NCBI RefSeq assembly: GCF_016918035.1
Contig: NZ_JAERWK010000003.1
Span: 62,001 to 126,000 of the forward strand
DNA: 64,000 bases
Reading direction: 5' to 3'
Source of the DNA: Nakamurella leprariae
GTDB taxonomy: Bacteria > Actinomycetota > Actinomycetes > Mycobacteriales > Nakamurellaceae
This document shows, one piece after another, positions 2-11,054 of the stretch; within the stretch, counting starts at the first letter, position 1; each line of letters begins with the position of its first letter. The notes below the pieces were generated by a model that was given only the letters and a program-made list of their open reading frames with translations, was not told the DNA's origin and made no database searches. Both the position numbers and the translations under genes were made by a program.

Positions 2-400
2 CAGAGCCTGACCGCCGTCGGCCTGAACGAGACCGGAGCCCTGTTCTCCGGCGTACGCACCCGGGCCGCCAAGATCAGCGCCTTCGCCATCTCCGGCCTG
101 CTCGCCTCGATCGCCGGCATCATGATCATCGCTCAAGCCGGATCGGCGTCCAGCACAGGGTTGGGCAGCGACCTGCTGCTGCCCGGCATCACCGCGGCGA
201 TCGTCGGGGGCACCGCCATCACCGGCGGCATCACCAACCCGGTCAACATCGTCTTCGGAGCGCTCACCGTCACACTCATCCCGATCGGCGCCGCCGCTCT
301 CGGGATGCCCTCCGAGGCGCAGAGTCTCGTCTACGGCCTCGTCATCATCGTCGCCGTCGCGCTGACCATCAGCCGCAGACGCGTCGGCATCGTCAAGTAG
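2..400 (+). CDS. Sugar ABC transporter permease, C-terminal part (RbsC-like), cut by window edge
   Basis: This is the 3' end of a membrane permease of the ribose/xylose (RbsC) ABC family; the reading frame is open from base 2 and the start lies outside the window. What remains, about 132 residues, has the family's typical end: a cytoplasmic loop with GLNETGALFSGVRT, a hydrophobic helix, then GITAAIVGGTAITGG, which matches the conserved permease stretch before the last two helices. Such permeases work as dimers with an RbsA-type ATPase and a lipoprotein binding protein. The gene ends 68 bp before pepD on the same strand. The nearby SorC regulator and sugar-phosphate operon suggest the transporter feeds that pathway, but this is inference. 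Confidence 0.85.
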   Translation, partial: QSLTAVGLNETGALFSGVRTRAAKISAFAISGLLASIAGIMIIAQAGSASSTGLGSDLLLPGITAAIVGGTAITGGITNPVNIVFGALTVTLIPIGAAALGMPSEAQSLVYGLVIIVAVALTISRRRVGIVK

Positions 401-468
401 TTCCGGACTACCCCAGCACGTCCGCCCCGTTCCGCCCCGAACCGCCGACGCCCGCCGAGGAGCGCCCC

Positions 469-1932
469 ATGCCCGTCCTGGAGAAGCTGGAGCCGCAGGA
501 AGTGTTGCGGTTCTTCGAGATCCTGTCCGACATCCCGCGTGGCTCGGAGAACGAGCAGCAGGTCGCCGACTGGGTGGTTGCCTTCGCCCGGGAACGCGGG
601 CTGACGGCCTTCCAGGACGCCGCGCATTGCGTGGTGGTGCGCAAGCCCGGTCAGGGCGGGCTGGAGGACGCACCGACCCTGATCCTGCACGGGCATCTGG
701 ACATGGTCTGCGCCAAGGACGAGGGGGTCGAGATCGACTTCCTGACCGAGCCGATCCGGTTGGTCGTGGACGGCGACTTCATCCGGGCCGACGGCACCTC
801 ACTGGGCGCCGACAACGGCATCGGGGTGTCCTACATCCTGGCGCTGCTGGACACCACCGACCTGCCGCACCCTCCGCTGGAGGCGGTGCTCACCGCCATG
901 GAGGAGAAGGGCAAGGTGGGTGCCGGCCAGTTCGACACCTCGGTGCTGACCGGCACCCGGATGATCGACTTCAACTGGATCACCGACACCGAGATCCTGG
1001 CCGGTTGCAGCGGTGACGTCACCTTCCTGGTCGACATCCCCGGCGAGTTCCAGGCTGTCCCGTCGGAGCTGTCCGCGACCCGGTCAGTGCAGGTCCGCGG
1101 CCTGCTCGGCGGTCACTGCGAGTTCGACATCCACCTGGAGCGGGCCAACGCCATCCAGCTGGTGGCCCGCGTGCTCAACACCGTGTTGGCCCGGTACCCG
1201 GCCCGGATCAGCGGCCTGGTCGGCGGCACCCAGAACAGCGCCATCCCTGCGGACGCCGAGGTCGTGCTGTCGCTGCGCCCGCAGGACGTGACCGGGGTCG
1301 AGACGCTGATCACCGACCTGGCCGATGTCCTGCACGCCGAGTACGAGCGTGCCGGCGACGCCATCCGCATCGAGGTGGCCGAGACCGGGGCTCCGGCGAA
1401 GGCATTCGGTGCCGCGGCCACCGCGCGGTTCGCGCGGCTGACCGCACTGATCCCGAACGGCGTGCTGAGCTGGAGCCTCCTCACCCCCGGGGTGGTGGAG
1501 AGTTCCAACAACCTCGGGACACTGCGCCCGACCGAGGACGGGGTCCGGCTGGCGTCGACCATCACCGCCCAGGTCACCTCGCGCAAGCACGAGATCCTGC
1601 AGCGGGCCGAGGTGCTCGCCGCTCTGGCCGGTGGTGGGGTGACCGTGCAGCAGTTCGGCCTCGACGCGCCGGAGTTCCCGTACCAGCGGGACTCCGGCCT
1701 GCTGCGCACCGCGGCCGAGGCCTACCGCGACGTCATCGGCAGCGAGCCGGACATCCACGTCTCCCAGTGCAGCCTCGAACTGGGCATGTTCAGCCGGAAG
1801 ATCCCGGGCCTGGAGATCATCTCCATCGGCACGGAGCTGCACGCTCTGCACTCCCCGCTGGAGAAGGTCAACCACACATCGGTGGCCAGGGTCTGGCCAC
1901 TGGTCCGCGAGGTGGTCGGCCGGCTGCGCTGA
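469..1932 (+). CDS. pepD: Aminoacyl-histidine dipeptidase (PepD-like, M20 family)
   Basis: This is a cytoplasmic zinc peptidase that hydrolyses Xaa-His and related dipeptides. It has 487 residues, the usual PepD length. Metal-site motifs are visible in order: HGHLDM (residues 74-79, with His76 and Asp78), GADNG (113-117, the bridging Asp), and the catalytic EE pair at 145-146 in AMEEKGK. A lid/dimerisation segment fills the middle and the last ligand His lies in LHALHSPLEKV near the C-terminus. The ATG follows an AGGAG-like site in cgaggagcgcccc. It lies just after the ABC permease on the same strand and could share its transcript. Its role beside a sugar operon is unclear. Confidence 0.9.
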   Translation: MPVLEKLEPQEVLRFFEILSDIPRGSENEQQVADWVVAFARERGLTAFQDAAHCVVVRKPGQGGLEDAPTLILHGHLDMVCAKDEGVEIDFLTEPIRLVVDGDFIRADGTSLGADNGIGVSYILALLDTTDLPHPPLEAVLTAMEEKGKVGAGQFDTSVLTGTRMIDFNWITDTEILAGCSGDVTFLVDIPGEFQAVPSELSATRSVQVRGLLGGHCEFDIHLERANAIQLVARVLNTVLARYPARISGLVGGTQNSAIPADAEVVLSLRPQDVTGVETLITDLADVLHAEYERAGDAIRIEVAETGAPAKAFGAAATARFARLTALIPNGVLSWSLLTPGVVESSNNLGTLRPTEDGVRLASTITAQVTSRKHEILQRAEVLAALAGGGVTVQQFGLDAPEFPYQRDSGLLRTAAEAYRDVIGSEPDIHVSQCSLELGMFSRKIPGLEIISIGTELHALHSPLEKVNHTSVARVWPLVREVVGRLR

Positions 1933-2020: not shown

Positions 2021-2998
2021 TCAGCTGTCGCGGTGGTCCAGCAGCCACTGGGCGGTGACCGAATCGGTCACCAGCACGTTGATCCACCCGCCGCGCAGCG
2101 CGGCGCGGACGGAGCGGTACTTGGACGGCCCACCACCGACGCCCAGCCGGCGAGGCGCCCGGCGCAACTGCCGCAGGGTGGCGCCCACGACGAGTTCGTC
2201 GAGCTCGCTGGACACCGGGACGCCGTCCGCGTCGAGGTAGCGCAGGATGACCTCGCCGACCGCCCCGCGTTCCTTGACCTCGGCGACCTGGTCGTCGGTG
2301 AAGAAATTGTCACCGGCGCGCAGCGGCGGCACGATGTCACCCGACCCGAAACCGGTCAGCGCCAGGTCGATGTCGTCCAGCTTGGCCAGGGCCTGCCGGG
2401 CGTGTCCGTCGTGCGCCAGCAGCGTCTCCCGGACCTGCCGGCTGGGCAGCACCCCCGGCAGCCGCAGGAACATCGGCTCTGCGCCGGTGAGCGAGGCCAG
2501 CTGCTGGGTGTTCTGGGCGGCGGCGTGCTGCAGGGCCGGAGGGCCCAGGTCGCCCAGCATCTCGACCACGTACCGGGTCCCGCTGCTGCGCATCGGCTGC
2601 AGATGACGGACGGTCTCCTGCAGGGTGCGGCTCCACGAGGTGAAGCCGATGACCTCGGCGTCCAGCGGGGTCGACTGCAGTTGCAATGCGAGCAGCTGGC
2701 CCAGTTCCCGCACCAGCTGACTCTCGTCCGGCACGTCACCGATGTCGTGGACGTGCGCACTGCGCAGCTCGTACACCGACTCGAGTTCCCGTTCCAGCGC
2801 GGACTGCTCGCCGACTGGCAGGACCACCGTGGTGCGGACGATGCCGAGCTCGACGGCCTGGTCCAGCAACCGGGAGACACGCGACTGGGAGATGTTCATC
2901 CGCTCCGCGATCGCGCTCTGCCGCAGACCACGCGTGTGGTACAACCAGGCCACCGTGGCGATCGTCCGCTGCGCGCCGGGTGCCTGCGCTCTCACCAT
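2021..2998 (-). CDS. SorC/DeoR-type transcriptional regulator with sugar-phosphate-binding domain
   Basis: A 325-residue regulator of the SorC family. The N-terminus has a helix-turn-helix (RQSAIAERMNISQSRVSRLL), followed by a long effector domain resembling sugar-phosphate isomerase folds (LTGFGSGDI, VGGGPSKYRSVRAALRGG near the end). SorC proteins bind phosphorylated sugars or polyols and control adjacent catabolic operons. The start is placed at the ATG at 2998 (MVRAQAPG) because the in-frame upstream stretch is arginine/proline-rich and not family-like. It is divergent from the dehydrogenase/kinase/aldolase operon beginning at 3304, with about 300 bp between them, so it is the obvious candidate controller. 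The effector is unknown; an intermediate of the operon is the natural guess. Confidence 0.85.
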   Translation of the reverse strand: MVRAQAPGAQRTIATVAWLYHTRGLRQSAIAERMNISQSRVSRLLDQAVELGIVRTTVVLPVGEQSALERELESVYELRSAHVHDIGDVPDESQLVRELGQLLALQLQSTPLDAEVIGFTSWSRTLQETVRHLQPMRSSGTRYVVEMLGDLGPPALQHAAAQNTQQLASLTGAEPMFLRLPGVLPSRQVRETLLAHDGHARQALAKLDDIDLALTGFGSGDIVPPLRAGDNFFTDDQVAEVKERGAVGEVILRYLDADGVPVSSELDELVVGATLRQLRRAPRRLGVGGGPSKYRSVRAALRGGWINVLVTDSVTAQWLLDHRDS

Positions 2999-3074
2999 CG
3001 CGTCCGTCCCCTCGTCCGATGGTGGCGACGCCCGCCGGAGGACGGACGTCCAGGCACCTGGGCGGTGCCGGCCG

Positions 3075-3103
3075 TTGACACTGTAGATGCCGCTCACTAC
3101 CCT
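3075..3103 (+). promoter_or_regulatory. Putative sigma-70-type promoter for the dehydrogenase/kinase/aldolase operon
   Basis: A TTGACA hexamer (3075-3080), a 17-bp spacer and TACCCT (3098-3103, fitting TANNNT) form a near-ideal housekeeping promoter reading toward the E1 alpha gene. It would start transcription near 3110, leaving about 190 bp of leader. The segment just downstream (3110-3140, with aaagatgct and gaatattgac) is unusually AT-rich for this window and could hold the SorC operator. The rest of the 305-bp gap holds no supported gene. Confidence 0.5.
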
Positions 3104-3303
3104 CGTCGAGTAAAGATGCTACGGCCGAATATTGACTCGGCACGGCTCCGTCGGACTGCCGAGACGGCCGGTCACCCGCCCCGGGCATCGTGCGACGTCG
3201 TCCGCCACATCCGCACCGTCGCACCGCCATCCGCGGGTCCGGGGACCGGACGGGCGGATCCCCATCACGTTCCACCGATGCCCATCGACAGGAAGGCGCG
3301 ACG

Positions 3304-4350
3304 GTGACCGACCCAGCCCCTCGATCTTTGCCCCGGGACACCCAACTGGAGATGCAGCGCCGGATGCTGCGGATCCGGCGGTTCGACGAACGGGCCTCCA
3401 AGATGGTCAAGCGGGGCCAGATCCCCGGCACGGTGCACACCAGCATCGGCCAGGAGGCCCAGGTGGTCGGCGCCTGCATGGCGCTGGGCGACACCGACTT
3501 CATGACGGGCAACCACCGCAGTCACGGTCACCCCATCGGCAAGGGCGCTCCGCTCGGTCCACTGATGGCCGAACTGGTCGGCAAGTCCGGCGGCGTCTGC
3601 CAGGGCAAGGGCGGCTCGCTGCACCTGGCCGACTTCGCGGTCGGCAGTCTGGGCGAGTCCGGCATCGTCGGCGGTTCCATCCCGATCGCCGTCGGCGCCG
3701 GACTCTCGTCGAAGGTGCTGGCCAACGACCGGGTCTCGCTGGCGTTCTTCGGCGATGGGGCGGCCAACCAGGGGTGCCTGTACGAGGGCATGAACATGGC
3801 CGGGGTCTGGAAGTTGCCGGTCATCTTCCTGTGCGAGAACAACCAGTACGCGCTGTCCACCCCGGCGCACACGGTCACCTCCGGGGTGATCGCCGACCGC
3901 GGATCCGGCTTCGGCATGCCGGGCGTCCGCGTCGAGAACGGTCAGGACGTCCTCGCGGTGCACGAGGCCGTCTCCGCGGCCGTGCAGCGGGCCCGCGCCG
4001 GGGACGGACCGTCGCTCGTGGAGGTCATCACCTACCGCTACAACGAGCACTCCGAGGGGCTCCGGCTCGGCGTCGACTACCGCAACGCCCAGGAGAAGGC
4101 GCAGTGGCTGGCCCGGGATCCGATCGTGTTGTTCCGCGAGGACCTGATCCGGCGAGGCGTGGCCGCGGCCGAGGAACTCGACGCATTGGAGGCCGACGTG
4201 TTGCGCGAGGTCGACGATGCCGTCGCCTTCAGCGACCAGAGCCCGTACCCGGAGCTGTCGGTCGCCTTCGACGACCTCTACAGCGACTCGCGGTTCGCCG
4301 TGCACCGTTTCCGCGACAGCTCTTTCGGCACTCTGGAGGCCGTGCGATGA
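3304..4350 (+). CDS. Thiamine-PP-dependent dehydrogenase E1 component, alpha subunit
   Basis: The alpha subunit of a 2-oxoacid or acetoin-type dehydrogenase, 348 residues. It binds thiamine diphosphate: the GDG...NN motif is at residues 150-152 (FFGDGAANQG) and 179-180 (CENNQYA). The phosphorylation-loop region (YRYNEHSEG) and the HTSIGQEA stretch typical of AcoA/PdhA are present. The start is the GTG at 3304 behind aggaaggcg; upstream frame-open sequence is not family-like. It overlaps the beta subunit by ATGA, implying translational coupling and 1:1 synthesis. Sequence alone does not tell pyruvate, branched-chain or acetoin specificity. The kinase, oxidoreductase and aldolase in the same operon suggest a carbohydrate-derived keto compound. 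Confidence 0.9.
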   Translation: MTDPAPRSLPRDTQLEMQRRMLRIRRFDERASKMVKRGQIPGTVHTSIGQEAQVVGACMALGDTDFMTGNHRSHGHPIGKGAPLGPLMAELVGKSGGVCQGKGGSLHLADFAVGSLGESGIVGGSIPIAVGAGLSSKVLANDRVSLAFFGDGAANQGCLYEGMNMAGVWKLPVIFLCENNQYALSTPAHTVTSGVIADRGSGFGMPGVRVENGQDVLAVHEAVSAAVQRARAGDGPSLVEVITYRYNEHSEGLRLGVDYRNAQEKAQWLARDPIVLFREDLIRRGVAAAEELDALEADVLREVDDAVAFSDQSPYPELSVAFDDLYSDSRFAVHRFRDSSFGTLEAVR

Positions 4351-5456
4351 CCGTGATGAGCTACCTGGGCGCGATCGGCGCCGCCCAGAAGGAGGCCATG
4401 CTCGCCGACGAGCGGGTGGTCATCATCGGCGAGGACGTCGAGGCCAACGTCTACGGCACCACCGGTGGAGCCGGCAAGAGCCGGGCCTCCGAGGGTGACT
4501 TCCTGCAGCAGTTCGGACGCAACCGGATCCGCAACACGCCGATCTCCGAGGAGGTCATCGTCGGGGCCGCCATCGGGGCGGCGATGACCGGCCTGCGCCC
4601 GATCGTCGACCTGTCGTACTCGAGCTTCCTGTACATGGCGATGGACCAGTTCGTGAACCAGGCGGCCAAGAACCGGTACATGTTCGGCGGCCAGGCCAGC
4701 GTGCCGGTGGTGTTCCGGTCGGCGATGTTCTACGGCCTGAACACCGGCGCCCACCACTCCGACCGGCCGTACCCGATGTTCATGAACGTGCCGGGTCTGA
4801 AGATCGTGACTCCGGCGTTCCCCAGCGACGCCAAGGGACTGCTGCGCACCGCCGTCGACACCGACGACCCGGTGCTCGTCTTCGAGGCCTGCGTGCTGTG
4901 GGGCAGCAAGGAGGAGGTCGACGAGCGGGAGTACCGGATCCCGTTCGGGGTCGGCCGGTCGGTGCGCACCGGCACCGACGCCACCGTCATCGCGGTGTCG
5001 GGCGCGGTCCCCGAGGCCGTCGCCGCGGCCGACGCGCTCGCCCCCGAGGGCATCTCGGTCGAGGTGTTCGACCCGCGCACCCTCGTGCCGCTGGACGTCG
5101 AGGGCATCCTGGACGCCGCCGCGAGGACCGGGCGGGTGGTGGTGGCCGATCCGGCCCACCGCACCTGCGGCGCGGCCGCCGAGATCTCCGCACTGATCTC
5201 CGAGCACGTCTTCGACGCGCTGCGCGGCCCGGTGCGTCGGGTCACCACCCCGGACGTGCAGATTCCGTTCAGCCCGGCCCTGGAGAAGCAGCTCTACCCG
5301 AACCGGGTCGCCATCGCCGACGCCGTGCGCGCCTCGCTCGGTGTCGCCGCGCCGACCACCGGGCGGGACGGCGACGACAGCACCGGTCCGGACGGCAGTG
5401 GGGGCACGCCCCCGAGCGGCCAGGACGCGGCGGTCGCCACCGGCGCGGCCCGCTGA
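4347..5456 (+). CDS. Thiamine-PP-dependent dehydrogenase E1 component, beta subunit
   Basis: A 369-residue beta subunit (AcoB/PdhB family). It opens with MTVMSYLGAIGAAQKEAM and has IGEDVEANVYGTTGG, then NTPISEEV (residues 64-70, with the conserved Glu) and an active-site segment around YGLNTGAHHSDRPYPMF. The C-terminal transketolase domain includes GVGRSVRTGTDATVIA and VEVFDPRTLVPLD. The ATG at 4347 overlaps the alpha stop. The extreme C-terminus (about 30 residues) is a low-complexity Gly/Thr/Ala tail beyond the usual family end. With the alpha subunit it would form an alpha2-beta2 heterotetramer that decarboxylates or cleaves its substrate and acylates a lipoyl domain, here probably the small protein encoded next. 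Confidence 0.9.
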   Translation: MTVMSYLGAIGAAQKEAMLADERVVIIGEDVEANVYGTTGGAGKSRASEGDFLQQFGRNRIRNTPISEEVIVGAAIGAAMTGLRPIVDLSYSSFLYMAMDQFVNQAAKNRYMFGGQASVPVVFRSAMFYGLNTGAHHSDRPYPMFMNVPGLKIVTPAFPSDAKGLLRTAVDTDDPVLVFEACVLWGSKEEVDEREYRIPFGVGRSVRTGTDATVIAVSGAVPEAVAAADALAPEGISVEVFDPRTLVPLDVEGILDAAARTGRVVVADPAHRTCGAAAEISALISEHVFDALRGPVRRVTTPDVQIPFSPALEKQLYPNRVAIADAVRASLGVAAPTTGRDGDDSTGPDGSGGTPPSGQDAAVATGAAR

Positions 5457-5523
5457 TCGAGCGCGATTCCGACATCCCATCCGCAGCAGTGCGCCAGACC
5501 GCTCCAGACAACGGAGGACACCC

Positions 5524-5769
5524 ATGGCACGACTCGAGGTCCTGCTGCCCCAGTGGGGCATGGGCATGAGCGAGGGTTCGATCACCGCCTGGCTCAAGGC
5601 GGTCGGTGACCAGGTCGCCGAGGACGAGGCGTTGGCCGAGGTCGAGGCCGAGAAGGTCGAGGAGACGCTCGAGTCGCCAGCGGCGGGGACGCTGGTGGAG
5701 ATCCTGGTGGCCGAGGGCGACACCGTCGAGGTCCGCACCCCGGTCGCCGTCATCGAGACCGCCGACTGA
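5524..5769 (+). CDS. Free-standing lipoyl domain protein (E2 lipoyl domain only)
   Basis: An 81-residue protein that is only a lipoyl/biotinyl domain. It has the beta-sandwich pattern of E2 N-termini: MPQ-like start (LLPQWGMGMSEGSITAWL), the hairpin turn carrying the modified lysine in EVEAEKVEETL (Lys44), and the closing AGTLVEILVAEGD. No peripheral-subunit-binding or catalytic domain follows; translation stops right after the domain. A GGAGG site precedes the ATG at 5524. The missing E2 catalytic domain is encoded as a separate gene about 4 kb downstream in the same operon. It would serve as a diffusible swinging-arm carrier between E1, E2 and an E3 encoded elsewhere. A glycine-cleavage H protein is unlikely on sequence. 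Confidence 0.88.
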   Translation: MARLEVLLPQWGMGMSEGSITAWLKAVGDQVAEDEALAEVEAEKVEETLESPAAGTLVEILVAEGDTVEVRTPVAVIETAD

Positions 5770-5775
5770 CCCGCC

Positions 5776-7446
5776 ATGGTCAGGCCGGAACTCACCGGCG
5801 GACCGTTCGACCTCATCGTCGTCGGCGCCGGGATCAACGGGGTCGGGATCACCCAGGACGCCGCCCTGCGCGGCCTGCGGGTGGTCCTCGTCGAGCAGGA
5901 CGACCTGTGCAGCGGTGTCTCGGCGTGGTCCGGGCGATTGGTGCACGGCGGCCTGCGGTACCTGGAGCAGTACGACGTCGCCCTCGTTCACGAATCGCTC
6001 TCGGAGCGGGAGCGCCTGTTCAGGCTCGCCCCGCACCTGGTCAAGCCGGTCCCGCTGATGGTGCCCGTGTACCGCCACAACCGGCGCCCCGGCTGGATGG
6101 TCGAGCTGGGCATGGTCGCCTACGATGCACTGTCGCTGGTCAAGACCCCGCCGTTCCACCGCGCGCTGAGTCGTACCGCCACCGTGCGCCGGTTCCCCGG
6201 CGTCGGGACCGACGGCCTGACCGGCTCGGCCGTGTTCTACGACGGGCAGGTGGAGAACGCCGAGCGGCTCTGCGTCGAGCTGGCGGTGGACGCCGCCGCG
6301 GCCGGCGCGGTGATCGCGACGAAGACCCGGGTGGAGGCACCGCTCGTCGAGCAGGGACGCGTGGTCGGGGTGCGCGCGACCGACACCACGACCGGTGAGA
6401 CCTTCCAGATCCGCGGATCCGTGGTCGACAACGTGGCCGGTGCCGCCATCGACCGCCTCCTGACCGACCACGCCCTGCCGCCGCAACCGCGACTCAACGG
6501 TGGCACCAAAGGAAGTCACCTCATCGTCGGACCGTTCCCGGGGGCACCGCGCGACGTCGTCTACTACGAGTCCCGCCAGGACGGCCGTCTGGTCCTGATC
6601 ATCCCGTGGCGTGGGCGCTACATGATCGGCACCACGGACATCCGGTTCGACGGCGATCCGGACGACGCCCGGTGCGACATCGGCGAGGTCGACTATCTGC
6701 TCGGCGAGGTGAACACCCTCATCCCCGGCGCCGGGCTCACGCTGGACGACGTCCTCTACACCTTCAGCGGAGTGCGCCCCCTGCCGTACGTCCCGGACAT
6801 GGCCGAGTCCTCGGTGCCGCGCAGCCACGTGCTGCACGATCACACCGACACGGGACTGCCTGGACTGGTGACCGTGGTGGGCGGCAAGCTGACCACCTAC
6901 CGCAAGCTGGCCGAGGACGCCGTCGACGACGCCTTCCGCCGGCTGGACCGCCGGTCCCCCGGAGTGCCGACCAAGCGACGCCGCTTCCCCGGCGCCCAAT
7001 TCACCGACCTGGCCACGCTCACGGCCGCGGTCGGTGCCCGGACCGGGCTGCCCGAGGCGCAGGTCACCCGCCTGGTCGATCTGTACGGCAGCCGTACCTT
7101 CGGCGTCTGGCAGCTGGTCGAGCGGGACCCCACCCTGGCCCGTCCCGTGCACCCCAGCGGCCTCACCGCGGCTGAACTCGTCTTCGCCGTGGACGCCGAT
7201 CTGGCGCGGTCCCTGACCGATGTGCTGGCCCGTCGGGTGCTGCTCGCCTTCGAGCCGGACCACGGGCTGGGATCGATCGACGTGATCGCCGGGGTGCTGG
7301 CCGACCACCTCGGGTGGGACGCCGGGCGGGTGGCCGCCGAGATCGCCGACTACCGCGGCTGGCTCGACAAGCTCGCCGTCCCGGATCCGGCGGGTCCCCG
7401 TTCGGAGTCCTTCGGTGCCGGAATCCGGGTGGCGGTGTCGTCATGA
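5776..7446 (+). CDS. FAD-dependent glycerol-3-phosphate dehydrogenase-like oxidoreductase (GlpD family)
   Basis: A 556-residue flavoprotein of the GlpD/EryB family. The dinucleotide-binding GAGINGVG is near residues 17-24, followed by FAD-contact segments (VHGGLRYLEQYDVALVHE), TKGSHLIVG, and GRYMIGTTD in the substrate domain. GKLTTYRKLAEDA precedes the C-terminal helical cap. GlpD enzymes oxidise a phosphorylated polyol to a ketose phosphate (glycerol-3-P to DHAP) and pass electrons to quinone at the membrane. The adjacent SorC regulator, GlpK-like kinase and ketose-phosphate aldolase suggest the substrate may be a longer polyol phosphate rather than glycerol phosphate. It ends in an ATGA overlap with the kinase gene. 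Confidence 0.85.
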   Translation: MVRPELTGGPFDLIVVGAGINGVGITQDAALRGLRVVLVEQDDLCSGVSAWSGRLVHGGLRYLEQYDVALVHESLSERERLFRLAPHLVKPVPLMVPVYRHNRRPGWMVELGMVAYDALSLVKTPPFHRALSRTATVRRFPGVGTDGLTGSAVFYDGQVENAERLCVELAVDAAAAGAVIATKTRVEAPLVEQGRVVGVRATDTTTGETFQIRGSVVDNVAGAAIDRLLTDHALPPQPRLNGGTKGSHLIVGPFPGAPRDVVYYESRQDGRLVLIIPWRGRYMIGTTDIRFDGDPDDARCDIGEVDYLLGEVNTLIPGAGLTLDDVLYTFSGVRPLPYVPDMAESSVPRSHVLHDHTDTGLPGLVTVVGGKLTTYRKLAEDAVDDAFRRLDRRSPGVPTKRRRFPGAQFTDLATLTAAVGARTGLPEAQVTRLVDLYGSRTFGVWQLVERDPTLARPVHPSGLTAAELVFAVDADLARSLTDVLARRVLLAFEPDHGLGSIDVIAGVLADHLGWDAGRVAAEIADYRGWLDKLAVPDPAGPRSESFGAGIRVAVSS

Positions 7447-8945
7447 GCGGGTCGTTCGTGCTCGCGCTGGACGAGGGGTCCAGCAGCTGCCGTTCCATCC
7501 TGGTCGACGCGTCGGGCGGCATGCATGGGGAACAGCGGGCCGATGTGGTCTGGAACACCCCACGGCCGAGCTGGGTCGAACTGGACCCGGTCCGGCTGTG
7601 GCAGGACCAGCTCTGCACCGTCCGGCGGTCGATGACCCAGGTGGGCGCGACGGGTCGGGATCTCGCGGCCGTGGCCGTCACCACCCATCGGGAGACCTCG
7701 ATGCTGTGGGACCGCGCCACCGGCGAGCCCGTCCATCCGGCGGTGGTGTGGATCTCCAAGCAGTCCGACGAGATCGTCCGGCGCTGGTCCGCCGAGGGCT
7801 TGGACGAGCTGTTCCGGCAGCGGACCGGACTGTTCAACGACTCGTTCTTCTCCGCGGCCAAGGTGGCCTGGATGCTGGAGCACGTGCCCGGCGTGCGGCG
7901 GCGGGCCGAGGCCGGCGAGATCGCCTTCGGCACGCCGGACACCTGGTTGCTGTGGAACCTGACCGGTGGACGCTCCCACCTGACCGACCACACGTGCGCG
8001 TCCCGCACCGCGTTGTTCAACCTCGAGGCGCTGGCCTGGGACGAAGAGCTGTGCGCCATCCTCGGCATCCCGATGGAGATCTTCCCCGACGCCGTCGCGT
8101 CGGACAGCGACTTCGGGCTCAGCTCGGCCGACGTCCTCGGCGCGGAGGTGCCGGTGCGGGCCGTCATCGCCGACCAGCAGGCCGGGCTCTTCGGACAGGC
8201 CGGCTACGCCCCGGGGTCGGCGAAGAACACCTTCGGAACGGCCGGCGTACTGACCGTGAACGCCGGCGAGAAGCCGGTCTTGGTGGACGGTCTGACCTCC
8301 AGCGTGGGCTGGACCATCCGCGGCACCACCGACTACGAGTTGGAGGGCGTGGTCTTCCACTCCGGCCAGACGCTGTCCTGGATGAAGGACAACCTCAAGT
8401 TGTTCCGGACCAACGACGAGATCGAGGCGCTGTCCCGGGCGGTCCCCGACTCCGGCGGCGTCTACGTGGTCCCGGCCTTCGGCGGGATGTGCGCCCCGCA
8501 CTGGGACCGAGAGGCCAAGGCGGCCGTCGTCGGGCTCACCCTGGAATCCACCGCCGCCCACGTCGTCCGGGCCGGGATGGACAGCATGGCCTTCCAGACT
8601 GCCGACATCATCGACGCGCTCGAGGCCGGCGGCATGCCGGTCGACGTCCTCAAGGTCGACGGCGGTTCCGCCCGCAGCGACCTGCTCTGCCAGCTCACCG
8701 CCGACCTGTCCGGAAAGGTCATCCAGCGCCCGACCTCACTGGAGCGCACCGCGCTGGGCGCCGCGTTCGTGGCCGGCCTGGGGGTCGGCCTCTGGGACGG
8801 CATCGTCGACCTGGAACAGACCTGGACCTGCGAGCGCGAGTTCATCCCACTCATCGACGAGGCCACCCGCGAGGCCCGTCACGCCGGCTGGCGTGAGGCC
8901 CTCGACCGCACCCTGCCCCGCCGGTTCGCTGCCGCCAGGTCCTGA
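7443..8945 (+). CDS. FGGY-family carbohydrate/polyol kinase (glycerol kinase-like)
   Basis: A 500-residue sugar/polyol kinase of the actin-like FGGY fold. The N-terminal phosphate loop LALDEGSSSCRSILVD and the DQQAGLFGQAGY and AKNTFGTAG segments are close to glycerol kinase. The C-terminal domain has the FGGY-like VPAFGGMCAPHWD and the adenosine-binding KVDGGSARSDLLCQ. The ATG at 7443 overlaps the upstream dehydrogenase stop. Kinase then phosphate dehydrogenase is the usual order of chemistry for glycerol or erythritol. The exact polyol cannot be read from the sequence. The glycerol-kinase-type substrate region makes a C3-C4 polyol more likely than a pentulose. Confidence 0.85.
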   Translation: MSGSFVLALDEGSSSCRSILVDASGGMHGEQRADVVWNTPRPSWVELDPVRLWQDQLCTVRRSMTQVGATGRDLAAVAVTTHRETSMLWDRATGEPVHPAVVWISKQSDEIVRRWSAEGLDELFRQRTGLFNDSFFSAAKVAWMLEHVPGVRRRAEAGEIAFGTPDTWLLWNLTGGRSHLTDHTCASRTALFNLEALAWDEELCAILGIPMEIFPDAVASDSDFGLSSADVLGAEVPVRAVIADQQAGLFGQAGYAPGSAKNTFGTAGVLTVNAGEKPVLVDGLTSSVGWTIRGTTDYELEGVVFHSGQTLSWMKDNLKLFRTNDEIEALSRAVPDSGGVYVVPAFGGMCAPHWDREAKAAVVGLTLESTAAHVVRAGMDSMAFQTADIIDALEAGGMPVDVLKVDGGSARSDLLCQLTADLSGKVIQRPTSLERTALGAAFVAGLGVGLWDGIVDLEQTWTCEREFIPLIDEATREARHAGWREALDRTLPRRFAAARS

Positions 8946-8971
8946 CCACCCACTCCCCGAGAGGCACCAGG

Positions 8972-9838
8972 ATGCGAGACTTCGATCCGCTGCGCTGGGT
9001 GCACGACGCCCGCGCCGGAGGCTACGCCGTCGCCGGTTTCAACATGCACAACGACGAGACCACCCAGGCCCTGCTGCAGGCGGCCGAACAGGCCGAGGCG
9101 CCGGTGTTCCTGCAGGTCGGCCGGGCGGTCATCCCGCACATGGGGGTCCGGCGTGCCTACGAGATGACCGTGCGCAACGCCGCGGACTCCGGCGCCCGGT
9201 ACGCCATCCACCTCGACCACGGCAGCTGGGAAGAGGTGCTCGAGGCGGTCCGACTCGGCTTCGACTCGATCATGTTCGACGCCGCCCACCTGCCGCTGGC
9301 GGAGAACATCGCTGCTACCCGCCGCGCGGTCGAGCTGTGCCACCACTACGGGATCCCGGTTGAGGCCGAGCTGGGCAAGATTCCGGACGTGGGCGCGCCG
9401 GTCGAGTGGGCGTCGTACTACACCGACGTGCACGAGGCCGAGCGGTTCGTGGCCGAGACGGGCGTCGACCTGCTGGCCATCTCGGCCGGGGTCGTGCACG
9501 GGGTCATCCCCGGGCTGGAGCAGGAGCCGCTGGCCGTGAACCTGATTGCCAGGATCGCCGAGACCGTTCCGGTACCGCTGGTGCTGCACGGTATCTCGGG
9601 TGTCCCGGACAATGAGATCAAGGACGCGGTGGCACACGGTGTGCACAAGATGAACGGCGACACGGACCTTCGGCACGCGTTCCGCTCCGGTGTCCTGCAG
9701 GCGTGGGAATCCGGTGACCGGCAGCTCGAGGAAGCGCTCGACGCCGGGCGTCTGAAGATGATCGACGCGGCCGTCGCCAAGTTCCACGCCATGGGCAGTG
9801 CCGGGACCGCCGGCGCGCTGACGGGAGGACCCCGATGA
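8972..9838 (+). CDS. Class II (zinc) ketose-bisphosphate aldolase family protein
   Basis: A 288-residue TIM-barrel aldolase of the FbaA/GatY/KbaY type. Expected metal and catalytic residues are visible: HLDHGS (Asp82, His83), the EAE motif (130-132), VVHGVIPG (His176) and LVLHGISG (His206), with the phosphate-binding KMNGDTDLR near 217. HGISG replaces the commoner HGGSG. Family members cleave ketose mono- or bisphosphates to DHAP plus an aldehyde. It is shorter than fructose-bisphosphate aldolases and closer in size to tagatose-type enzymes. In this operon it probably follows the kinase and the GlpD-like enzyme. It overlaps the next gene by ATGA. The physiological ketose is unknown. Confidence 0.85.
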   Translation: MRDFDPLRWVHDARAGGYAVAGFNMHNDETTQALLQAAEQAEAPVFLQVGRAVIPHMGVRRAYEMTVRNAADSGARYAIHLDHGSWEEVLEAVRLGFDSIMFDAAHLPLAENIAATRRAVELCHHYGIPVEAELGKIPDVGAPVEWASYYTDVHEAERFVAETGVDLLAISAGVVHGVIPGLEQEPLAVNLIARIAETVPVPLVLHGISGVPDNEIKDAVAHGVHKMNGDTDLRHAFRSGVLQAWESGDRQLEEALDAGRLKMIDAAVAKFHAMGSAGTAGALTGGPR

Positions 9839-10530
9839 CCGACATCGCGCAGCGGCGTCCCGCCGCCGACGGCGCCCCGGACGGGGTGGCCACACCGTTG
9901 GCCGGCATCCGCAAGGTCGCCGCCCGACGGATGGTCCAGGCCTGGGCGGCGCCGGTGTTCCATCTCGGTGTGGACGTCGACATGGGGCGGGTGCTGGCGG
10001 CCGACCTGCGGTCCATCGGCGGCACCGTCACCGACGCCATCCTGCAGGCCTGCGCGACCGCGCTGGTCGCGACGCCAGCGCTCAACGCGCACTACGCCGA
10101 CGAGGTGATCACCACCTTTGCGAGGATCAACATCGGGCTGGCCGTGGCCACCGACAAGGGCTTGACCGTGCCGGTGCTGCACGACCTGCAGGGTGCGTCC
10201 ATCGGCGACATCGCCGTCAAACGCAGGAATGTCGTGGAGCGCGCCCGCGCCGGCAAGCTGACCAAGGCCGACATCACGGGTGGCACCTTCACGGTCTCCA
10301 ACCTGGGCATGCTCGGCATCGACCGGTTCGACGCGATCCTCAACCCGCCGCAGATCGCCATCCTGGCCGTCGGGGGCACCACCGCCACACCGGTAGTGCG
10401 CGATGGAGTGGTGACCGTCCGGTCGATCGCGGCGTTCACGCTGAGCTGTGACCACCGCGCGGTCGACGGGGCCGCGGGCGCCGGGCTGCTGGCCGGCATC
10501 CGGACGGTCCTGGAACAGGACGGCACCTGA
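9835..10530 (+). CDS. E2 acyltransferase catalytic domain, without lipoyl or subunit-binding domains
   Basis: A 231-residue protein made only of the 2-oxoacid dehydrogenase E2 catalytic core. The domain opens with PLAGIRKVAARRMVQAW at about residue 21. Conserved GTFTVSNLGMLGID lies near 150, and the catalytic DHRAVDG (206-212, His207 and Asp211) is intact. No lipoyl domain and no peripheral-subunit-binding domain precede it; only about 20 residues lie before the core. The lipoyl domain is a separate gene earlier in the operon. The protein should transfer an acyl group from the lipoyl carrier to CoA, probably as a trimer or 24-mer. How E1 and E3 dock without a binding domain is an open question. 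ATGA overlap with the aldolase gene. Confidence 0.88.
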   Translation: MTDIAQRRPAADGAPDGVATPLAGIRKVAARRMVQAWAAPVFHLGVDVDMGRVLAADLRSIGGTVTDAILQACATALVATPALNAHYADEVITTFARINIGLAVATDKGLTVPVLHDLQGASIGDIAVKRRNVVERARAGKLTKADITGGTFTVSNLGMLGIDRFDAILNPPQIAILAVGGTTATPVVRDGVVTVRSIAAFTLSCDHRAVDGAAGAGLLAGIRTVLEQDGT

Positions 10531-10550
10531 TCGTCCGCGGCATTCGGGGC

Positions 10551-10579
10551 TTGACGCAGGACTTGCAATTTGCAAGTGT
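10551..10579 (+). promoter_or_regulatory. Promoter with perfect 17-bp palindromic operator before the VOC/HxlR pair
   Basis: A TTGACG hexamer (10551-10556) is followed by the perfect palindrome ACTTGCAATTTGCAAGT (10561-10577, 8-bp arms around one T), which fills the spacer up to a weak -10 near 10574-10579. A dimeric winged-helix repressor bound here would block RNA polymerase. The HxlR-family regulator encoded two genes downstream is the likely ligand. Confidence 0.6.
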
Positions 10580-10619
10580 GAATGGCGTCCACCTCCCCGA
10601 CCTGACCTCGGAGTCGACG

Positions 10620-11054
10620 ATGACCGCGATGTTCGTCAACCTGCCGGTGACCGATCTCGAGCGCGCGACGGCGTTCTACACAGCACTGGGATTCCGCATC
10701 AACCCGCAGTTCTCGGACCACAACGCGGCCTGCGTGGTGGTCGAGGAGGACCACAGCTACTTCATGATCCTGGTCCGCGAGTACTTCCAGACCTTCACCG
10801 ACCTGCCGATCGGCGATCCGGCCGTGAGCCCGTCGGTGTCGGTGGCGATCTTCCGGGACAGCCGCGAGGAGGTCGACCGGACCGTCACCGACGGTCTGGC
10901 CGCGGGCGGCGCGGAACCGCGGCCGGCCGCCGACTACGGCTTCATGTACCAGCGCCAGCTCACCGACCCCGACGGCAACGTCCTGGAGTTCGGCTGGATG
11001 AACCCGGTCGCCGGCGAGCTGGGCCCCGAGGCGTTCGCGGCCCAGCAGGCCTGA
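10620..11054 (+). CDS. VOC (glyoxalase/bleomycin-resistance fold) family protein
   Basis: A 144-residue protein of the vicinal-oxygen-chelate superfamily. The start MTAMFVNLPVTDLERATAFY at 10620 is typical of the first beta-alpha-beta-beta-beta module. The C-terminal YQRQLTDPDGNVLEFGWM carries the usual DPDGNVLE turn with a metal-ligand Glu. Such proteins act on small molecules, often reactive carbonyls, or bind drugs; the substrate is not predictable. It lies 19 bp upstream of an HxlR regulator and downstream of a perfect palindromic operator, so the pair is probably an autoregulated stress or detoxification unit. Confidence 0.8.
   Translation: MTAMFVNLPVTDLERATAFYTALGFRINPQFSDHNAACVVVEEDHSYFMILVREYFQTFTDLPIGDPAVSPSVSVAIFRDSREEVDRTVTDGLAAGGAEPRPAADYGFMYQRQLTDPDGNVLEFGWMNPVAGELGPEAFAAQQA

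Follow-up and report, generated by a model that had tools for sequence, protein, structure and literature searches.

Within the stretch of 64,000 nucleotides from Nakamurella leprariae that has been analysed here (contig NZ_JAERWK010000003.1, positions 62,001 to 126,000; the window in the following), genes of polyol-phosphate metabolism are interleaved in one operon with those of a 2-oxoacid dehydrogenase-like complex, of which the thiamine diphosphate (ThDP)-dependent E1, a lone lipoyl protein and the catalytic core of the acyltransferase E2 are encoded separately. Among the lipoate-dependent complexes, the dehydrogenases usually bear the lipoyl domain on the E2 chain, and the locus raises the question whether such a dispersed E2 is a kept system, and what it would do between polyol genes. 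As judged from sequence, the anatomy of the split complex is solid, in its parts, motifs and order as well as in the untethered E2 without an E3-binding domain and the genes for lipoyl attachment or lipoyl synthesis in the stretches of relatives, and the complex apparently has a role in the use of sugar alcohols.

From a scan of E2 loci, which covered the best 80 of 498 relatives, we have obtained a clade of 25 loci with split E2 cores (the window, L023–L041, L103, L104 and L110–L112), a number that is a lower bound. When the E2 frames of this clade were scanned from stop to stop (24 whole frames; L103 by its annotated coding sequence), 25 of 25 have shown PF00198 and no other domain, with the H, D and G of the HxxxDG motif invariant in every core. 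In contrast, the E2 frames of L042–L102 from the same scan, which served as the control set after 7 of 61 running off a contig end had been dropped, carry lipoyl, E3-binding and catalytic domains together in 54 of 54 cases. The reading frame of the window E2 opens just 39 codons before its ATG and is thus too short there for a lipoyl domain, and the structure model of the protein (pLDDT 83) matches E2 cores in the PDB (best E=2e-22, TM 0.77, root-mean-square deviation 7.7). A lipoyl or E3-binding domain hidden upstream in the E2 frame has been ruled out by the scan for the 24 whole frames and the one coding sequence. The lipoyl domain itself has been found as a lone gene in all 21 loci of types A and C (described below) that have an E2 core. 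There, the whole lipoyl open frame measures at most 145 aa in 15 loci and 190–609 aa, being open upstream, in the remaining six, and in none of the 21 do more than two residues follow the lipoyl match; all 31 lipoyl proteins in the alignment, variants included, retain the lipoyl lysine.

The splitting of E2 into separate genes, as claimed in an initial annotation of this DNA, has been borne out; none of the seven operon genes has an E3-binding domain or is an E3, and the parts travel together. The counter-case named at that time, a fused E2 or its subunit-binding domain in the operon of relatives, is absent from the clade, whose E2 is catalytic-only with intact frames. One may still regard the E2 pieces as remnants of a decayed fused gene, since domains that normally share one chain are here separate, yet motifs and open frames are kept in the clade loci and the order of the genes is conserved in two phyla, which renders this reading hardly credible. 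A pseudogene state of the split E2 has been rejected on the same kept motifs and frames, and on the recurrence of the parts in other genera. From these comparisons, the split E2 is best described as a kept system rather than a local decay.

The search for the same gene order in other genomes, which had been proposed together with the claim, has recovered the parts in other actinobacteria, in two Rhodobacterales and on a Shinella plasmid. Type A1 comprises six loci (N. endophytica, Geodermatophilus, two metagenome-assembled genomes and two genomes of the same genus as the window) with a single gene order, namely binding protein, ATPase, permease, E1 alpha, E1 beta, lipoyl protein, GlpD-like dehydrogenase, kinase, aldolase and E2, followed by a LipM/LplA-like gene, a G1P-dehydrogenase-like gene, a second FGGY kinase and a HAD phosphatase. 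A search for the G1P-dehydrogenase-like gene in the window genome, run without a positive control, has given no match. Type A2 (the window, L112 and others) has a different transporter and PepD, in some loci with an epoxide-hydrolase-like protein or a beta-keto acid cleavage enzyme (BKACE), and the alphaproteobacterial type (L039, L040 and the Shinella plasmid locus L104) brings LipA. Type C (L027, L033, L036) combines E1, lipoyl protein and E2 with a short-chain dehydrogenase/reductase (SDR) and a kinase. The identity of E1 alpha amounts to 73–86% across the type A and C loci with E2 (73–75% in the three alphaproteobacterial loci, 73–81% in type C). The distribution of the system is patchy: an E2 match of at least 60% identity has been observed in 5 of 17 genomes of the genus survey, the window genome included, and in a draw of 396 genomes of the phylum solely in the window genome, while E1 alpha matches at E <= 1e-110 occur in 4 of the 396, again including the window genome.

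In trees of E1 and E2 (FastTree, midpoint root; 69 loci for E1), 20 type A and three type C loci form one E1 clade (0.908), which is joined by L138 and then by three sphingomonad loci with a support of 1.0 each time, and a separate lipoyl gene is present in all 27 loci of this widened clade. The split E2 cores likewise group together, with a weak root support of 0.461 that rises to 0.909 when the three alphaproteobacteria are left out. The clusters of sphingomonads and Rubrobacter contain E1 and a lipoyl gene with no E2 core beside them, and the pair of E1 and lone lipoyl protein may therefore be older than its pairing with a free E2 core. In genome G199, E2 matches reach at most 35%. The three sphingomonad plasmid loci (L108, L124, L126) have E1 alpha, E1 beta and the lone lipoyl gene; in the annotated L108 and L126 these adjoin SDRs, a cupin and an M24 peptidase. 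On a Mesorhizobium amorphae plasmid (L123:8995-11017), an E1 alpha/beta pair has been seen in a stretch where neither a lipoyl nor an E2 protein matches those of the window, and the neighbours of L138 and L123 have given no useful clue.

A further arrangement, variant B, has been observed in L029, L030 and L034 and in part in L103. Here, E1 alpha and beta are fused into one chain, and a lipoyl protein of its own, a kinase, an aldolase-like and a GlpD-like protein are encoded along with an E2 core, which nests inside the type A and C E2 clade (support of 0.858 and 0.953 at the nodes that enclose it). A common E1 origin of type A and variant B is unsupported, as the variant B E1 groups away from types A and C. 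The window genome itself carries a variant B operon on contig C27 (L134:5993-14872) with BKACE, a SorC-family regulator, a class II aldolase-like protein, fused E1 alpha-beta, lipoyl protein, kinase and GlpD-like dehydrogenase, and neither nearby nor elsewhere on this contig has an E2 been found. The E2 core of the window may, on this gene content, serve both the type A and the variant B system. A wider form of this idea, in which one free E2 core works with two pairs of E1 and free carrier (type A in the window, variant B on C27) in a so far undescribed aldehyde (or ketol):CoA oxidoreductase that depends on ThDP and lipoyl groups and leads from a polyol to dihydroxyacetone phosphate (DHAP) and acyl-CoA, is doubtful but conceivable.

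The same absence of an E2 next to the variant B operon would also fit a different division of labour, in which E1 and the lipoyl protein mainly use the housekeeping E2 and E3, and the free E2 core, by assembling together with that of an ordinary E2, plays a helper role. The E1-lipoyl units without a neighbouring E2 in Rubrobacter and sphingomonads point in this direction, as does the presence of further E2s and of three E3-binding domains at other places in the window genome. However, the split E2 cores group together in the tree, if weakly with the alphaproteobacteria included, and they lie in the gene cluster with E1 in 21 type A and C loci, so that we regard such a helper role as unlikely.

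Concerning the layout of the window operon, all seven genes that had been annotated at 3304-10530 are in place and in the same direction, with Pfam agreeing for each (Table 1). The tight packing that had been noted holds as well, although five of the six joints, instead of four, overlap or are shorter than 30 bp: the coordinates give three 4-base overlaps (E1 alpha/E1 beta, GlpD/kinase, aldolase/E2), two gaps that measure 6 and 26 bases, and a third gap, between E1 beta and the lipoyl gene, of 67 bases. Scans for promoter and terminator consensus sequences at 2900-3400 and 10450-10750 have found nothing. E1 alpha in the clade shows the motifs GNHRSHGH, GDGAANQG and EHSEG, with the ThDP motif kept; E1 beta aligns with the beta chains of pyruvate dehydrogenase (PDH) and branched-chain 2-oxoacid dehydrogenase (BCKDH), and its loop FYGLNTGAHHSDRPYPMF is nearly invariant across the type A and C loci. 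None of the E1, lipoyl and E2 proteins attains the cut-off of a curated NCBIfam model; E1 alpha lies below the equivalog cut-offs of TIGR03182 and TIGR03181, and E1 beta, the aldolase and the GlpD-like protein (334.9 vs 360 for the GlpD equivalog) likewise stay under those of their listed models. For the kinase, the annotated FGGY family is correct and can be refined to the glycerol-kinase type, since it passes the GlpK subfamily NF000756 (536.8 bits, cut-off 498), although not the equivalog TIGR01311 (522 vs 590), and its nearest solved chains are glycerol kinases. In the window aldolase, HLDHG, EAELG, VHG, LHG and NxDTDLR are all present.

Table 1. Genes of the split-E2 operon and its neighbours in the window
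Feature	Position	Strand	Details
E1 alpha, ThDP-dependent dehydrogenase subunit	3304..4350	+	348 aa, GTG start; PF00676 264.6 bits
E1 beta	4347..5456	+	369 aa; PF02779+PF02780
Lone lipoyl carrier protein	5524..5769	+	81 aa; PF00364 E=5.6e-20; lysine in EAEKVEE
GlpD-like FAD polyol-phosphate dehydrogenase	5776..7446	+	556 aa; PF01266+PF16901 (DAO/DAO_C)
Glycerol-kinase-type FGGY kinase	7443..8945	+	500 aa; PF00370+PF02782
Class II aldolase	8972..9838	+	288 aa; PF01116 (F_bP_aldolase)
E2 acyltransferase catalytic core alone	9835..10530	+	231 aa; PF00198 only; HRAVDG motif
SorC-family regulator, sugar-binding domain, divergent	2021..2992	-	PF04198 E=3.6e-42
M20 dipeptidase, PepD type, upstream neighbour	469..1932	+	TIGR01893 above cut-off
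ABC permease, end only	2..421	+	remainder of sugar ABC transporter just before window

Regarding the function of these parts, the pairing of a GlpK-type with a GlpD-type enzyme suggests that a terminal hydroxyl is phosphorylated and its neighbour oxidised, which would result in a ketose 1-phosphate. We tentatively favour, at slightly below even chances, a catabolic polyol operon with a dispersed complex of the 2-oxoacid/acetoin-dehydrogenase type, which would lead from a polyol to DHAP and an aldehyde and further to acyl-CoA; the order of the reactions, the substrate and the free diffusion of the carrier are what we infer here. The glycerol-kinase-type enzyme would phosphorylate the polyol, the GlpD-like enzyme would oxidise the carbon next to the phosphate, and the class II aldolase, with its motifs intact, would cleave the resulting ketose 1-phosphate into DHAP and a short aldehyde. 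From the latter (or from an alpha-ketol), E1 would make hydroxyalkyl-ThDP and load the lipoyl lysine with the acyl group on the 81-aa protein, which, like the H protein of the glycine cleavage system, would diffuse untethered to the free E2 core, where the acyl group would be transferred to CoA, and a shared E3 would reoxidise the lipoyl group with NAD+. As neither a binding domain nor a linker is present, the lipoyl protein would need diffusion to reach E1, E2 and E3 alike. Acetyl- or glycolyl-CoA as the product is a guess. The cleavage of a polyol phosphate, as it had been proposed in the initial annotation, has gained support at the level of gene linkage, which is conserved for the aldolase in 18 and for the GlpD-like gene in 16 of the 21 type A and C loci with an E2 core, and variant B contains a comparable set of parts though its E1 sits elsewhere in the tree. 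The ABC binding proteins, whose closest matches among solved chains bind ribose and other sugars, do not decide the substrate.

Several observations weigh against this pathway. Since the aldolase itself served in part to separate types A and C, its occurrence throughout type A is no independent support. Type C has the same E1, lipoyl protein and E2, with nearly the same E1 loops, in loci without aldolase or GlpD-like gene, so that an aldolase-derived aldehyde cannot be the sole route to the E1 substrate. Within type A, the GlpK-like kinase is absent from the stretch seen in 5 of 18 loci with E2 (all five have another FGGY kinase), and the GlpD-like gene is missing in 2 of these 18, or in 5 of 21 when type C is included. 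In Rubrobacter, E1, lipoyl protein, GlpD-like dehydrogenase, kinase and aldolase are found together without a split E2, and the best E2 match in the genomes G069 and G092 is 40%, in long frames. The aldolase-like protein of variant B (L029, L030, L034, L134) has LFNE in place of HLDH, which may entail a different metal site or chemistry. E1 stays below every PDH equivalog cut-off, the window locus has no gene for a LipM/LplA-like protein, LipA or E3, and the genes for PepD, the epoxide-hydrolase-like protein and BKACE beside several clusters are not accounted for by the pathway.

With type C lacking the aldolase, the GlpD-like gene missing in some loci and the E1 active-site loops kept, E1 may cut the C-C bond itself: it would split an alpha-ketol such as a ketose phosphate in the manner of acetoin dehydrogenase or transketolase into acyl-CoA and a sugar aldehyde, and the aldolase would belong to another branch. 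A Rhizobium sophoriradicis plasmid (L125:6615-13916) encodes a DXR-like (DRL) protein beside E1, a fused E2, an E3 and an aldolase, and a gene for a SorC-family regulator lies directly upstream of these; the DXR-like oxidoreductase matches PDB 3upl (E=1.5e-206), and for this locus a catabolism of methylerythritol phosphate through 1-deoxyxylulose 5-phosphate (DXP) is possible. Such a context of E1 would fit DXP as the ketol. The Rhizobium E1, however, is 47% identical and falls outside the clade, so that a DXP-type ketol as the E1 substrate is a lead only, and the aldolase accompanies the great majority of type A and C loci with E2; a cleavage by E1 is therefore somewhat unlikely, if still to be considered. 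In the part of the DXR-II paper covered by a term search (PMC3847144), nothing on gene context has been found.

A 2-oxoacid dehydrogenase complex of the ordinary kind, which would act on an unrelated 2-oxoacid and share only its regulation with the polyol genes, would be in line with the best matches of E1 alpha and beta, which are PDH-type models and chains of PDH or other 2-oxoacid dehydrogenases. None of these matches attains an equivalog cut-off, however, and variant B has a similar set of parts although its E1 and aldolase are clearly different, which makes such a coincidence quite improbable.

Returning to the proposed polyol pathway, the supply of lipoyl groups and of E3 differs between loci. 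A LipM/LplA-like gene accompanies 13 of the 21 type A and C loci with E2, and LipA three others (16 of 21 in total). The Pfam scan of ligase-like proteins covered L025, whose protein passes the LplA-B_cat cut-off and misses the NCBIfam equivalog cut-offs. The window locus has no such gene nearby, and its genome has a 39% relative on contig C37. Of the initial annotation, the lack of an E3 gene remains true at the window locus, but not as a trait of the system, since E3 stands in the cluster in L039 and L040 (2 of the 21) and also in L103 of variant B; the absent E3 thus appears, from this gene content, to be a feature of the window locus. On the contig of the window, no match to the E3 family (PF02852) or the E3-binding domain (PF02817) has been obtained, while the other contigs of the genome hold five PF02852 matches, not all of them necessarily E3, besides the three E3-binding domains mentioned above. 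At the end of contig C28 and the start of C29 of genome G000 (L139, L135), lipoyl and E3-binding domains are followed by an E2 catalytic domain, and the contig break may cut a canonical E2.

When compared to known systems, the complex shares E1 alpha/beta, the lipoyl lysine and the E2 catalytic core fold with HxxxDG with the PDH, BCKDH and acetoin dehydrogenase complexes, but differs from the PDH, BCKDH and 2-oxoglutarate dehydrogenase type in that its E2 is without lipoyl and E3/E1-binding domains and is not the single chain typical of these complexes. A likeness to acetoin dehydrogenase is seen in the lipoyl protein, whose best match in NCBIfam falls on the lipoyl part of an acetoin dehydrogenase E2 model (NF011457, 74.5 vs a cut-off of 307), while acetoin models are absent among the listed NCBIfam matches of E1 and E2. 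The single-domain carrier resembles the H protein of glycine cleavage; it is nevertheless not GCV_H (PF01597, 20.1 vs a cut-off of 22.2 bits), and a scan of the seven operon genes together with three neighbours has shown no P or T protein. According to the eLife study of LbpA, which counts five characterised lipoate-dependent complexes, the LbpA of sulfur oxidisers is a single-domain lipoyl protein with its own LplA-like attachment gene nearby (PMC6067878). Many loci described here likewise have an LplA-like gene close to the lone lipoyl protein, whereas the partners of the carrier are predicted to be E1 and E2 instead of Hdr-like or glycine cleavage proteins.

Operons of the erythritol type, e.g., eryABCD of Brucella, contain a GlpK-like kinase, a GlpD-like dehydrogenase, a SorC-family regulator and sugar-phosphate isomerases. 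The first three are all present here, but a class II aldolase and the E1/lipoyl/E2 set take the place of the sugar-phosphate isomerases, none of which is found among the seven genes. The nearest PDB chains of the aldolase are 8q57 and 8q58, labelled tagatose-1,6-bisphosphate and ketose-bisphosphate aldolase, which we take to be structures of sulfofructose-1-phosphate aldolase; they share the catalytic and metal motifs and a similar GxxVIxxMG stretch, although the window aldolase remains below every NCBIfam aldolase cut-off. Among open-licence papers in PubMed Central, judged by titles and the starts of abstracts, we have recognised none that deals with polyol operons in which the E2 is split and the lipoyl protein stands alone, which leaves absence unproven. 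If the proposed pathway is true, the untethered carrier and an E2 without E3-binding domain would probe how far tethering is needed, in a system small enough to be rebuilt in vitro from five or six proteins, and polyol catabolism would gain an acyl-CoA-forming exit of which no description has been found in the literature searched.

Concerning the surroundings of the operon, the frame of the divergent SorC-family regulator may start further upstream, up to 3097, and the protein stays below the NCBIfam cut-offs (DeoR 156.3 vs 420 bits; LsrR 90 vs 486). Relatives of a binding protein, a permease, an ATPase and a further permease make up a transporter set in L109 on the window's own contig. A relative of PepD is found in 7 of the 21 type A and C loci with E2, the window included, and a PepD-type dipeptidase has been seen beside the cluster in several genera (the window, L031, L035, L037, L038, L041, L105, L112, L136). 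Near type A and variant B clusters (L031, L038, L112, L122, L134, L136), BKACE proteins are 75–84% identical to that of L038, and this neighbourhood suggests a beta-keto acid step.

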